This document shows, in pieces, positions 3,075 through 26,370 of a stretch of DNA of 64,000 nt. The stretch is taken from the NCBI GenBank assembly GCA_025677825.1, contig JAIXMO010000009.1:310001-374000 (forward strand). The letters are read 5' to 3'. The position numbers and the translations under genes were made by a program. The DNA comes from Helicostylum pulchrum. Lineage: Eukaryota > Mucoromycota > Mucoromycetes > Mucorales > Mucoraceae. Every line of letters starts with the position of its first letter. The stretch's first letter is position 1. The notes beneath the pieces were generated by a model, which worked only from the letters and a program-made list of their open reading frames with translations, was not told the DNA's origin and searched no databases.

Positions 3075-3267
3075 TATAAGAAGAATGAAAGAAAGCAAAA
3101 AAAAAAAGAATTTGTGTTTCAAAAAAACTTTTTTTTTTTTTGTAGTTGCACCATTATCATAGCACTGACCTTGTGATCTTATTTATTAAATAATTCCCTT
3201 TTTTTCTTCTTTTCCTTCTTTCTTCTCTTTTTTTTTTACTTTCTTGTTTTTTGTTTATTTTAAAAAA

Positions 3268-4257
3268 ATGAACAATAATAATAATAATTCAGATATGATT
3301 GATATGCAGGACAAGATAGGTTACGTCGATACAGGTCCGACACTGCAACCACATAACGCACCGTACCAACCCGTCGCTACTTCTACGTCGGCACACTTGA
3401 TAATTAAAGAACCTAAACCGCAAAGACAACTAAACATCCCCACCGAACCCAAAAAAAAGATAAACGGATACAACCATAACAAGCCAGAACCCGTTGAAGC
3501 ACTACCACCACAACCACAACCACAACCACAACCAGTTCGAACCGAAAAGAATGTAGAAAAACGAGTATCATACGAACCTACTGAAAGGAGCCCCCGATAC
3601 ACTAACCGTGAAGAGATAAAAGAAATGATGGTTCATAAATTATACGAATTAGCAGACATGTTAAAGTCATTAAATATAGACGAACCAACAACAACAACAA
3701 CATACGGTCCAAGACCAACTCCTTCAAAATCAGACCCACAACAACAAATAAAGAGGCGACCAAGTAAAGGAAAAAACCCTTCTCCTGAAAGTAATAGACA
3801 TGCGTATAATAAGAGTCTGGAATATAACGAACCAATTTATACGCATCGACCTTATTATTCCTATTACGATCATCCTCGACAACAACAACAACAACAACAA
3901 GAGGTAATTTATGATGACGAGTATTATGAAGAACCTTATACTGCTGCTGCTCCGTATTTTCGACCTCAGTCTTCTACATACGTACCACGACCTCGTAGAA
4001 AATCATATAGTAATCTAAGAGACGAAGACCAACAGCGACAGCAACAGCAGCAGCAGCAGCAGCATGCTAGACTGGGAAGAAAGACATCTCGAAATAATTT
4101 AGGTAGGCATGCAAGACCACCACCACCGCCACAGCAGCAGCCTCAGGTTACATATGACCCAAGGTATGATTCATATCAACAAGATAGGATACCACCACCT
4201 AGTAGATACCACCCATCTTATTATCATCAAGCTTATTCTCCAGATGATTACTATTAA
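3268..4257 (+). CDS. Disordered proline/glutamine-rich protein, unknown function
   Basis: Single-exon ORF of 329 residues from the ATG at 3268-3270; an upstream in-frame TTG at 3244 is not a plausible start. It has an asparagine run at the start, a QPQPQPQP repeat, several poly-Q tracts (around 3885-3900 and 4040-4063), a PPPPP stretch and many tyrosines near the C-terminus. One short helix-prone part (REEIKEMMVHKLYELADMLK, about residues 115-135) may be the only folded or interaction segment. No recognisable domain. The composition suggests a scaffold or condensate-type protein; this is inference only. Confidence 0.7.
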   Translation: MNNNNNNSDMIDMQDKIGYVDTGPTLQPHNAPYQPVATSTSAHLIIKEPKPQRQLNIPTEPKKKINGYNHNKPEPVEALPPQPQPQPQPVRTEKNVEKRVSYEPTERSPRYTNREEIKEMMVHKLYELADMLKSLNIDEPTTTTTYGPRPTPSKSDPQQQIKRRPSKGKNPSPESNRHAYNKSLEYNEPIYTHRPYYSYYDHPRQQQQQQQEVIYDDEYYEEPYTAAAPYFRPQSSTYVPRPRRKSYSNLRDEDQQRQQQQQQQQHARLGRKTSRNNLGRHARPPPPPQQQPQVTYDPRYDSYQQDRIPPPSRYHPSYYHQAYSPDDYY

Positions 4258-12877: not shown

Positions 12878-13097
12878 TACTTTATTTTCATAAGATATTG
12901 GAAAAATTTAAATGGAGTAAATTTAAATAGAGATATTGAGAAAAGTTAAATAAGAATTTGAGACAAGTTAAATAAGTTTTGTTGAAATACCAAAAGATGT
13001 TAACGTACAGTTTAAAAAAATTGTTAAAAAAAAAAACTTATCAAAAGTAAATAAGGGTTATCCAAATGTTATAAAGGATATAAGTTGAGATGACGGT
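12859..13097 (-). ncRNA. Predicted Fanzor guide RNA (fRNA/omegaRNA) region
   Basis: Placed by analogy only. Known TnpB and Fanzor guide RNAs come from the end of the nuclease gene and the adjoining transposon end, with the guide taken from flanking host DNA. Here the nuclease stop is at 13098 and the left TIR ends at 12880, so the scaffold would span roughly 12880-13100 on the minus strand and the guide would be the complement of about 12859-12879. Small inverted motifs are visible, such as GGTT-ATA-AACC just after the stop and CTTAT...ATAAG near 13040-13060. An 11-T run on this strand (13027-13037) could end a Pol III transcript early, which argues for caution. Confidence 0.3.
12880..13020 (+). 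repeat. Left terminal inverted repeat of the Fanzor element
   Basis: 141 bp whose reverse complement matches 17160-17295. Relative to the right copy it has A for G at position 5, an extra 3 nt after GGAGTA, an extra 2 nt in GTTAAATAAG, and two more substitutions near the inner end (GATGTTAACG against GATATTAGCG). The match stops at the A-run before TTGTT. Confidence 0.95.
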
Positions 13098-16000
13098 TTA
13101 TAACCTCCTAAAGGGCTCTAGGCGATTGTTGTTATTTTGAGCCATATGAAGAAAAATTGAACGGATATTCATACTGGCCATATGATCTCTATTCCACCGT
13201 GTATCACAAGTAGAGCATTTGAGTACAGGGTGGATTTTTGAGCCAGAGTTGTTTTTTTCATTCAAATTTGTTCTGGTTTGACATCTGGGGCATATTTGTG
13301 AAGTCAGATATTCGTTAACCATTACAACATAAGTCGGTGCTTTTTTGTTTCTTTCTCGAGCAAATTTAATTAAAGCTTCTTTAACGACTTTTGTACGAGC
13401 AGGTACATTTCCTCCCAAGTTACTGAACGTAGCAGCACCAAAAGCAATTACAATAGGTTTATTTGTTTCTTCTGGTCTATCTGCAGGCGCAGTCTGCTTC
13501 CACTTTTTGGTGCTGTTTTCGATTGTCATGTGATTGGTGGGATCATACTTTTTACTCTCCGTTAATAAACGTTTAGATATTTCTGATAGTGCTTGCTGTT
13601 TTTTTATATAGTTACGAAATTTAAGCTTGTTGAACCTTAAATTGCGGTCGTAATACAGAGTCGTATTAACAAAATTATTAAATATGTAACTTGCAGCAAC
13701 ATTAAACAGATTTAAAGAACTAGTCTTTAAGGACGGCGTAGCGGAAATAATAGCTCTTTCCTCGGCATCACCTCTATCAATCTTCCCTCGAGTAATTCTA
13801 GCTTTCTTAAAACCGGCAAGCTGATAATATTCATTGGTTGTGGTTCTTCTTATTCTATGCCTTTCTATATCACTACCATCAGCAGCAACAAACACATCTC
13901 TCAAACCTGGATCTACTCCCCATACAGTTGCAGAAGATAAGTCAACCTTTAAGGAAACATCGGACGGTGTAAGAGGTAAAGAGTAAGCAGGAACAGACCT
14001 ATCACAAATAAATTCGATACCAACACCATCAGTACGAAGTGCACCCGTAAATCCTTTTCTGTTATCAGGACTATTTAACTGGTCAAATGATTCAAATCCA
14101 ATCTTACTCATATCAAAAGCCTCCCAACACAACTGCGTCATACTTTTTGTTGGTATGTTGGTAATTCCATGATTTCTCACCAGTTTTGCCAGCGCCACTC
14201 GATTAATAGGAATATAACGCATTTTCGTACTATACAAAGGAATCATTGTAAATAAGCGTGCTCCTCTAGGATCGGTGTACTTTTCAGGTCGGAATGTATT
14301 GGTAGCAATAGAATCTCTTGTCTCTTCAACGAAGCGATCTAAGGAAGTCTTTTCTTCGGCAGAAAGATCTTGACGCGTTCTTCTTTGATCAGTATCACGA
14401 TTGGCTCGATTGGGCTTGTTTATATTTGTAAAGCTTCGAGTTACAAACTTCGGTTTACCAGCTCTAATATTGATAGCCTCTTGTACATGATGTTCTAAAG
14501 TTTTTTTGAAATTTTCTTGGAAGATACACTAGTCTTACTAACTCTTTTACTTTTCTATGTATAAAACCTCTATTCGCTTTCTTTTCAGGTACGTGTTCTT
14601 TAATAGAATCAACTTGTTCCATTCTTTGTAGGACATGATATAACCAAGGTAAGTATAGGTGAGGTCTAGCTCCAACATTAGCTGTAGTTAATGGCAATGG
14701 ACCCATCAAACGTGCGCTTTCAATTTTCAATCTGGTTATAATCGCCTTTTGAAGTTCAGTAAAATTCATAGATTCTTTGTAAGTAATATTAGTATTATTT
14801 GAAACACTATCAAATATTTTTTCAGCCAGTTCTCGTTTATGAGCCGTCGAGTAGGAAATGCGAAATTCAGAATTTGTTGAAGATAAACTTGTAAAGAAAT
14901 ATCTTAAAGACCTCTTATAATTATCGGCGACATAGTTATGAATTAGCGCTGAATAGCTCCTAATAACCTCAGTAACGGTAGTAGTAAATCCTTGAGAATG
15001 AAACCTTTCAGGAATATAAGTGTCGCCCAGCATCTCTTTAAAACGATTAAAACTTTCTGCTACATTCGGTAAAGCCTTAGTTCCTAGATTTATCGCAAGG
15101 GAAGCAAAGTCATAAAGAAACGTATGTGTCAACGAAGGAATTGGCATATCCTCACTTAAGAGTTCAAGAACAAAGAAATTTATAAACAAAGAAGTGGCGG
15201 AAGTTACATCTCTACAATGCGATACAGTTTTTTGAACGGCTGCACAAAACGAGGTATTGGCTTCTTCATTAGCTAGATTAATAGTATTTTTGAGACTTGT
15301 TTTAATAACAAAACGAGATTTTTTTGGCTTTCGCAAATGCTCTTCATGACGACGACAGTTTTTGTTGGCCATACTTGCATGTCCTGGTGTACCACAGTCC
15401 TTACAAGCTCTTTTCTTACTAGTAAGATACTTTGGTCCTACTTCTTTTAAAGCGGCAGCCTTAGCAGTAGCCCTTTCACTTTTTTTCTTCATTCTTTCGG
15501 ACATCACGCTCGAAACAGATTCAGCACCTTCAGAAAAGATAGAACCTTCTCTTGAAAAAAGTGCCACACCTTCAGCAAATATGTCAGTAACGCCTATTTT
15601 TTTTTTTTTTTTTGATTAATTTATGATACAGATATATATACTTATAATTTATCAATAAAAGGACACATACCAGTTGACGATGTTATTGACTGAGTCGTTT
15701 CAGGGCATGCTAGTACATTTAGTCTTTCGACATTAGAACCGCTTAGTTGAGAAAGAGAAACATATGAAGGCAAATGGGGAAGAGGAGGAGGAGGTGGTGG
15801 TGGCTCAAGAAGAGCGGATGTGCTTGACTCGCCTATAGACCATCTTACCGGTGGTCGCTGTCGGAACTCTGTCAATGCATCACCCTCGGTTTCTGAGTCT
15901 TGGTTAGATTTAATGGCTTGCTCAACGTACGAAGTATCTTTATCTGATAGTATAAGTAGAGTAAGATACTTGAAGTAATGGTTAATTTTATTAATGTTAA

Positions 16001-16167
16001 GTACCTTTGCCTTTTTTTTTGAATTTTTCGTACAGGTTCTTGGTTATCTTCTAAAGGATCTTCTTCAAATGGTTCTGTCATATATAGTTAGTAATTAGTA
16101 TTAATGGGTATCACATAAAAACCAATAAATTCTTAAACCTACCTTTTTTTCTCTTGGGTGGGGCCAT
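13098..16167 (-). CDS. Fanzor RNA-guided nuclease (TnpB/Cas12-related RuvC), frame interrupted
   Basis: Exons: 16143-16167, 16005-16074, 15671-15943 and 13098-15593, with GT-AG introns; intron 1 has an ACTAAC branch site. Exon 1 encodes MAPPKRKK, a basic nuclear localisation signal. Exon 3 is proline-rich. Exon 4 has a cysteine/histidine cluster (CKDCGTPGH...C..H, 15346-15405), a helical middle, then the nuclease domain. Nuclease residues: RuvC-I Asp in WGVDPGLRDV (13911-13913), Glu in VNEYLTSQICPRC, a CxxC...CxxC zinc ribbon (CPRC and CSTC), and RuvC-III Asp in NRDHMASMN. This order is the TnpB/Fanzor hallmark. The predicted full protein is near 890 residues, the Fanzor1 range. Two apparent +1 shifts occur in A-runs: 7 A at 14501-14507 and 9 A at 16012-16020. 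They mean pseudogenisation, assembly error or frameshifting. Expected role: RNA-guided DNA cleavage in the nucleus. Confidence 0.85.
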
Positions 16168-16515
16168 ACTTTTAAATAAAGAAAATAAAGAGGAGAAGAT
16201 CATCAAATTTACCTTGCATTTTATATTCGTTGTTGAGTTTAGAATGGTATTTTCTTGTAATATTAAGCTACAGATGTCTTAAGGGCTACCGCACTTACTT
16301 TTTGGAAGCTATTATAAACCAATGAAATATCATCTCTTAAGGATTGCCACATTTTTCGAACCACAATCGTTATCTAGATCCTTTAAACTAAGAAAGCTAA
16401 TAAGAAAGACAACGTGCATAGACGATGTCGTAATTAACGTTCCCGAGAACCTAATCATTGTTCCTGTTAGTTTACCTTTCTTATCATTGGCATATTGACT
16501 ATGCTTTACAATAAT

Positions 16516-17097
16516 CAACTTTAACCCTTATCGTTAATATCGAAGCGGATTTTAATCTTCATATCAGTCGTTCTCGAGGCTGGTCTAAGAAAAGAAAACC
16601 CACCAAATCTATTGTTCCTACCTCTCGAGGTACTTCCGTTACTGCCTTAGGGGCAATATCAGCTCAAGGAGTAATTGATATATCTCTTAGAAAAACCATT
16701 ACAATTGCAGATAATAAAAAAAGAAAAGTCGATGGGAGCGTTGTAACAACAACAGCTGGAATTGGAACTCTAACAGAGCATTATTTAAGTTACTTAAGAA
16801 AGGTGATGGATGTTTTAGATAAGAAAAATTTAAAGGGACATTATATCTTTATGGATAATGCTCTTATTCATAAGCCTGAAAAAGTAAGAAAACACATTGA
16901 AGATAGAGGATATAAATGCTTATATCTCCCAACTTATTCGCCTTTCTTAAACCCAATAGAAGAGTATTGGTCGAAAGTAAAATTTGGTGTAAAAGAGAAG
17001 CATTTGATAACGGAGAAACATTAACTCCTAGAATTTTGAAGGCATGCCCAGAAGTAACTCTTAAAGATTGTCAAGGTTGAATTAGACATTCTATATC
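16516..17097 (+). pseudogene. Tc1-like DDE transposase, decayed and 5'-truncated
   Basis: An open frame from 16516 to 17024 encodes the catalytic part of an IS630/Tc1 transposase: HISRSRGWSKK, AISAQGVIDI, then IFMDNALIHKP (second Asp, 16854-16856) and YSPFLNPIEEYWSKVK (Glu, 34 residues later: DD34E). The first catalytic Asp, expected immediately before E-A-x-F-N, is Ile (16539-16541). After 16990 the family C-terminus continues in another frame (AFDNGETLTPRILKACPEV) and is then cut by TGA at 17078-17080. No N-terminal helix-turn-helix domain is readable upstream between 16170 and 16515, and the open part has no ATG before 16806. The protein is therefore not functional; mobility would need a transposase from elsewhere. 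Confidence 0.88.
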
Positions 17098-17159
17098 ATT
17101 TTTTGATTCAATTTAATAAAAAAAAAATCCCCAAAAATAGTTTTGAACTTTTCCCGTAC

Positions 17160-17295
17160 TTTTTTTAAACTGTACGCTAATATCTTTTGGTATTTCAACA
17201 AAACTTATTTAACTTGTCTCAAATTCTTATAACTTTTCTCAATATCTCTATTTAATACTCCATTTAAATTTTTCCAATATCTTATGAAAACAAAG
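17160..17295 (-). repeat. Right terminal inverted repeat of the Fanzor element
   Basis: 136 bp, the reverse complement of the left TIR with a few changes. It is followed directly by TA (17296-17297) and then CAGTGCAGCACCCCCCGGGA, host DNA that itself resembles the end of another Tc1-type element. Confidence 0.95.
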
Positions 17296-17431
17296 TACAG
17301 TGCAGCACCCCCCGGGACGGACAGTCACTTTAAACCGCCATTTTTTTTATTTTTTTTTTGCACTACAAACGCTTCCCCCCCAGTTTTGTTTTGTTTTTTT
17401 TTACCTTTAACCCCTCTCCCCCATTTGTAAA

Positions 17432-26143: not shown

Positions 26144-26272
26144 ACTTTAGGAAAAAACAACCCTGTAAGTTTTTTTTTTTTTTTTTTTTTGCTAGAAATA
26201 AGAATGTATTACAACCACCTTACCTAATCACATGTTTAGATTTAGAGTTGAGTTGGTGAAAATTATTAAGGA

Positions 26273-26370
26273 CAGTGAATCATCGAATCTTTGAATGCAT
26301 CTTGCGCTCATTTGTATTCCAATGAGCACGCCTGTTTCAGTATCAGAAACACCCCACATTCAAAATCTTT
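26273..26370 (+). rRNA. Dispersed 5.8S rRNA 3' end plus ITS2 fragment (rDNA relic)
   Basis: GTGAATCATCGAATCTTTGA is the diagnostic 5.8S rRNA sequence. It is followed by the GCATCTTGCGCTC...GAGCACGCCTGTTTCAGTATC segment and ACACCCCACATTCAA, which resembles the start of Mucorales ITS2. One base differs from the usual 5.8S (GAATGCATC for GAACGCATC). No 18S, full 5.8S or 28S surrounds it, so it is a non-functional fragment inserted among gene relics. Confidence 0.85.

Follow-up and report, generated by a model that had tools for sequence, protein, structure and literature searches.

The window, a 64,000-nucleotide stretch of DNA covering positions 310001-374000 of contig C158 in a 32.2-Mb assembly of 168 contigs, contains a 4.4-kb element at 12880-17295 with a TA dinucleotide on either side. 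We read this element, with a probability of close to nine in ten, as a decayed, non-autonomous transposon of the Tc1/mariner type that carries a Fanzor1 gene and whose insertion site is a TA upstream of the gene ATP1, in what is probably a fungal genome. Terminal inverted repeats (TIRs) and a TA target site, both Tc1/mariner features, are present, the minus strand encodes a Fanzor nuclease domain and the plus strand a Tc1-type DDE domain. An earlier, sequence-only reading had described a Fanzor-bearing, TA-bounded element of Tc1 type, and in this it was right. It had also called the transposon complete. That description does not hold, since only a remnant of the transposase is left and the Fanzor frame has two breaks. 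C2, C46, C100, C103, C115, C130 and C132 below denote other contigs of the same assembly.

Element boundaries and host locus

The left TIR (12880-13020, plus strand, 141 bp) lies on the 3' side of the Fanzor gene and holds imperfect 22-bp direct repeats. The right TIR (17160-17295, minus strand, 136 bp) is an inverted copy of it. Aligned with each other, the two differ at three substituted bases and by gaps of 3 and 2 bases, which confirms the lengths and the differences first read from the sequence. The arms pair in register over stretches of 71 nt (97%), 42 nt (98%) and 26 nt (100%), which places the pairing far beyond chance. The flanking TA dinucleotides lie at 12878-12879 on the left and 17296-17297 on the right.

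Searching the genome with the TIR returned three places, namely both ends of this element and one piece on C46; no TIR copy reached beyond the boundaries given here. In a pattern search of the genome that allowed up to three mismatches, the 22-base TIR tip occurred only at the two ends of the window element, each time mismatch-free apart from an allowed ambiguous base (reversed control, one match). On C46 the sequence passes from the left TIR into a TA and then into unrelated DNA, as judged from the end of the BLAST match and by eye. That copy thus also begins at a TA, with a different flank, and because its homology is lost at the same TA the left boundary is independently supported. The claim that TA bounds the element on both sides stands. 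A pattern for an empty site with the flanks joined had no match in the genome, as expected with one assembly.

To the right of the element lies a gene for the mitochondrial ATP synthase alpha subunit (ATP1), whose putative start codon lies ~134 bp downstream of the right TA. The best-scoring chains at this gene include 2hld, which we take to be the yeast protein. The adjoining ATP1 exon has an open frame of 473 aa, so indel errors are not rampant locally. Elsewhere in the window, 26216-26345 matched 5.8S rRNA with a score of 42.7 against the Rfam gathering score of 42; this is low for a working gene, and the match is possibly a degenerate piece of rDNA.

A Fanzor1 gene and a truncated transposase

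The minus-strand ORF at 13098-14528 matched the Cas12f1-like_TNB profile (PF07282) at 1e-10, above the curated cut-off, which upholds the earlier assignment of a TnpB/Fanzor nuclease domain. A match to guided_TnpB (8e-7) fell under that model's cut-off. We built a profile from five Fanzor pieces of the same genome, the C2 copy supplying one. It matched Guillardia theta Fanzor1 (PDB 9cer) at 5.8e-7, across the stretch with TDG and DPG and that with the Glu and zinc finger; at E <=10 its two further matches were a histone (1.3) and, at 0.46, a Spizellomyces punctatus Fanzor. The single Fanzor sequence had no match among PDB chains at 1e-3. A structure prediction for the C-terminal piece had a mean pLDDT of 34 and was set aside.

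Excerpts of PMC3627910 give the Fanzor1 signature as D-X(125,275)-[TS][TS]-X-X-C4 zinc finger-X(5,50)-RD, and excerpts of PMC10711439 name, as marks of Fanzors, a DPG in RuvC1 and an alternative Glu six residues ahead of the zinc finger, with a TDG motif as a mark of Fanzor1. DPG, TDG, the alternative Glu, a C4 zinc finger and RD are all found in the translated ORF. The signature reads WGVDPG ... YLTSQICPRC ... CSTCDTRWNRD, the third Asp sitting in WNRD; the alternative Glu lies in NEYLTSQIC, with six residues between the E and the C of the zinc finger; and the TDG motif (WED) reads GALRTDGVGIEF. Judged by these sequence marks, the minus-strand gene is a Fanzor1.

We predict four exons for this gene, all on the minus strand, between which GT-AG introns can be drawn. 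Predicted exon 1 (16143-16167) would encode MAPPKRKK, which is NLS-like, from a putative start codon. It is followed by intron 1 (16075-16142, 68 nt), with a TACTAAC-like branch site seen by eye, exon 2 (16005-16074), intron 2 (15944-16004, 61 nt), exon 3 (15671-15943, 273 nt) and intron 3 (15594-15670, 77 nt). Predicted exon 4 (13098-15593) holds the N-terminal region, TDG, the RuvC motif DPG, the alternative Glu, the C4 zinc finger and RD. The N-terminal part of the protein was compared among local loci.

In the window copy the coding frame is not intact. It is broken at two places, and at both of them C2 and C46 read alike whereas the window carries one net extra base each time. The exon 2 break shifts the frame in or beside the run at 16012-16020 (an A-run on the minus strand, where an adjoining base also differs), and exon 4 is broken at a run of seven Ts at 14501-14507 of the plus strand, an A-run on the minus strand. 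Outside both breaks, Fanzor pieces of 475 aa and 362 aa are open and the active-site residues are kept. An intron at the exon 4 break was considered and rejected, since protein similarity runs on across both sides of it and the frame is continuous in C2 and C46. As the exon 4 break lies in a homopolymer and the exon 2 break in or beside one, both may be assembly errors. The spliced Fanzor gene of the sequence-only reading thus survives in its nuclease domain and its drawable introns, and not in its reading frame. Compared pairwise with the window, C46 gave dN/dS values of 0.54 over 353 codons and 0.40 over 130 codons, and C2 gave 0.67 over 360 codons and 0.62 over 404 codons; these values are consistent with past constraint plus decay.

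The plus strand carries the remnant of a Tc1-type transposase (16542-17104), a DDE domain that starts just past the first catalytic Asp and retains the D and E of a D-34-E motif. The 34 residues between D and E were counted by eye; this spacing is a hallmark of the Tc1 type. The ORF at 16515-17024 matched DDE_3 at 6.8e-21, an IS630 NCBIfam model at 4.6e-19 (under that model's cut-off) and Sleeping Beauty at 1.7e-4. The frame changes near 16990-17010, and a stop follows in the later frame at 17078-17080. There are at least 132 matches to this transposase in the genome, and among the matches listed is a cousin on C103 at 63%, with 463 residues in two open pieces flanking one stop. The window element aligns to this cousin only from residue 253 onward; against window 15900-16700 its residues 1-252 reached E 7.5 at best, which is not a credible match. 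About 250 N-terminal residues, with the DNA-binding domain and the first catalytic Asp among them, were not detected in the element, so that the Tc1-like transposase of the sequence-only reading reduces to a 3' remnant with its end out of frame.

The truncation is probably old. In ungapped alignments read by eye, the first catalytic Asp (residue 252 of the C103 cousin) is replaced by Ile in all three copies of the element, and since the N-terminal loss is common to them it probably predates their separation. At the position of the lost Asp, C46 has ctgcag before gt, which resembles a splice acceptor, so an upstream exon may once have held the lost part. The copies also differ at the 3' end: the window and C2 run on there in a different frame, C46 does not, and one codon is a stop in the window and Trp in both C2 and C46.

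The guide RNA of the Fanzor can be placed by analogy only. According to excerpts of PMC10711439, published Fanzor1 RNAs extend ~15 nt beyond the target duplication; by that analogy, drawn also from PMC10432273, the guide would be the 15-nt stretch just outside the left TA, minus-strand positions 12877-12863. Five stretches near the 3' end of the Fanzor, folded as RNA, had no unusual fold (z-scores -0.17 to 0.77), and the placing of the guide region to the base, as in the sequence-only reading, was not confirmed. In the genome, the 16-mer formed by TA and the next 14 nt matched itself and one site with one mismatch, and the reversed control gave two matches.

Other copies and rival explanations

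Our searches, whose copy number is a lower bound, found three copies of the element (window, C2 and C46), all damaged. The C2 copy has stops and frame changes, and the C46 copy a stop and a rearrangement. In C2, the Fanzor and the transposase remnant stay collinear for 3.9 kb; in C46 the collinearity covers the remnant and the 5' part of the Fanzor. The C2 copy also holds an insertion of ~420 bp (L053 1254-1674) with GTTTG at both sides, which begins with TG, ends with CA and by eye looks like a solo LTR. On C46 (L052), the left part of the Fanzor copy is inverted and sits between 499-bp perfect inverted repeats (1848-2346 and 3110-3608), which contain open frames for another protein and abut the left TIR of that copy.

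The copies differ from the window at the right end. The window right TIR was found in neither: the C2 match to the window stops at 17155, five bases short of the right TIR, and the C46 BLAST match at 17106, beyond which a forced alignment gave 74% identity. The right ends of C2 and C46 are themselves alike (93% over 45 bases), and this stretch was found nowhere else in the genome. The right TIR of the window may then be a later copy of the left one. In a stronger version, the element would have been non-autonomous from birth, the Fanzor having replaced the N-terminal half of the transposase and the right TIR having been copied from the left. The different right end of C2 and C46, and a C2 match that stops within five bases of the TIR, point to such copying, and we nevertheless hold this version to be improbable. 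If it were true, a Fanzor-made break near one end of the element, repaired from the other end, could renew TIRs without a transposase of the element's own.

Other Fanzors in the genome bear on whether the two genes form one unit. The TNB zinc-finger profile listed 18 genome matches, the window Fanzor included, 17 of them above the cut-off; the other 17 are putative Fanzors. We scanned 21 stretches of 3-6 kb (L004, L006-L021, L065 and L073-L075, with L004 and L073 being one locus), representing 20 other Fanzor-type loci, and none matched this transposase type at E 1e-3. This, together with the opposite orientation of Fanzor and transposase, would suit two nested insertions, a Fanzor element within a Tc1 remnant, better than a single composite. 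The collinearity seen in C2 and C46 speaks for a single unit, as do the lack of a long inverted repeat around the Fanzor alone and the Fanzor 3' end in C46, which is contiguous with the left TIR; nesting is accordingly a poor prospect. Two further possible Fanzor-Tc1 pairs were rejected as parallels. On C115 the two genes are separated by a Tc1-like TIR tip, which was identified by eye from its likeness to the C103 element and whose right partner was not found. On C130 the repeat arms enclose the transposase and leave the Fanzor fragment outside. Both pairs look like neighbours, not composites. Pattern scans of viral contigs (16 matches) and of genome contigs (47 matches) yielded no relative by tblastn. 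Near-alike copies at C132:132324-132848 and C100:97054-97584 (L074 and L075) belong to another Fanzor1-like family, 34% identical to the window Fanzor over the aligned part. On C158 itself, outside the window, three TNB zinc-finger matches with internal stops (409488, 424436 and 469748) lie up to ~147 kb from the element.

Could the Fanzor be whole? If both extra bases were assembly errors, the element would hold a functional RNA-guided system moved in trans. The breaks do lie in or beside single-base runs, and the 475-aa and 362-aa pieces outside them are open with their active-site residues. The transposase is truncated regardless, however, the C2 and C46 copies carry stops or rearrangements of their own, and the neighbouring ATP1 exon is open throughout its 473 aa; we consider an intact Fanzor unlikely. 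Domestication of the Fanzor by the host, the transposon relics being incidental, seems very improbable indeed: the dN/dS ratios of 0.40-0.67 might hint at it, but a gene under maintenance should show lower ones, the values seen may go back to selection in the past, and all three copies found are damaged.

Returning to a decayed, non-autonomous Tc1/mariner-type transposon, we infer the following history. The DNA-binding half of the transposase would have been lost before the three known copies separated, and the element would have been moved by a transposase supplied in trans. The RNA serving an intact Fanzor would have come from the 3' end of its gene, comprising the left TIR and ~15 nt of flank, and the RNA-guided cut of the re-joined empty site would have favoured re-copying of the element. 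Our searches turned up no intact transposase flanked by these TIRs, so mobilisation in trans is putative; within three mismatches, the TIR tip is confined to this element. In the window copy the RNA-guided system is probably dead.

Comparison with known Fanzor elements

These findings add a Fanzor1 family carried by a Tc1 element with ends placed to the base, in a genome where the TNB profile has 17 further matches. The truncated transposase common to the three copies fits a view of Fanzor elements as passengers of foreign transposases. Since no copy found looks functional, the element alone makes no open question testable.

A Fanzor1 inside a Tc1/mariner element is of a kind known since 2013, and the window element is a further, decaying example. 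The comparison that follows is by topic, not by sequence, and draws on excerpts of the papers cited. Bao and Jurka (2013; PMC3627910) described Fanzor1 in mariner elements with or without a transposase, at TA target sites, and their section 7 and Figure 3 legend mention intact or degenerate transposases in such elements. Their PGv-1, PUl-1, PUl-4 and HMa-1 resemble the window element in combining Fanzor1 with a mariner-type transposase, or in having Fanzor1 alone between mariner TIRs; in their TA target sites; and in the degenerate coding sequences marked in Figure 3. They differ in host, being viral or from Pythium or Hydra where the window element is probably fungal, and in their TIRs, which in the window element measure 136-141 bp. 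Guillardia theta Fanzor1 (PDB 9cer), which our profile matched over the TDG/DPG and Glu/zinc-finger regions, is a distant relative for whose locus PMC10432273 reports no clear transposase association. A fungal case is Spu-1 of Spizellomyces punctatus, with its Fanzor SpuFz1 (PMC3627910, PMC10432273), likewise a Fanzor1 element with TIRs and TA. The activity of SpuFz1 has been demonstrated, and a transposase has not been found between the repeats of its element (Saito 2023; PMC10432273). Spu-1 is ~2.1 kb long, with a single ORF, TIRs of 30-33 bp, many copies and a demonstrated guide RNA, whereas the window element, whose profile match to SpuFz1 has an E of 0.46, is 4.4 kb long, with predicted introns, three copies found, a guide RNA predicted by analogy and both genes broken.
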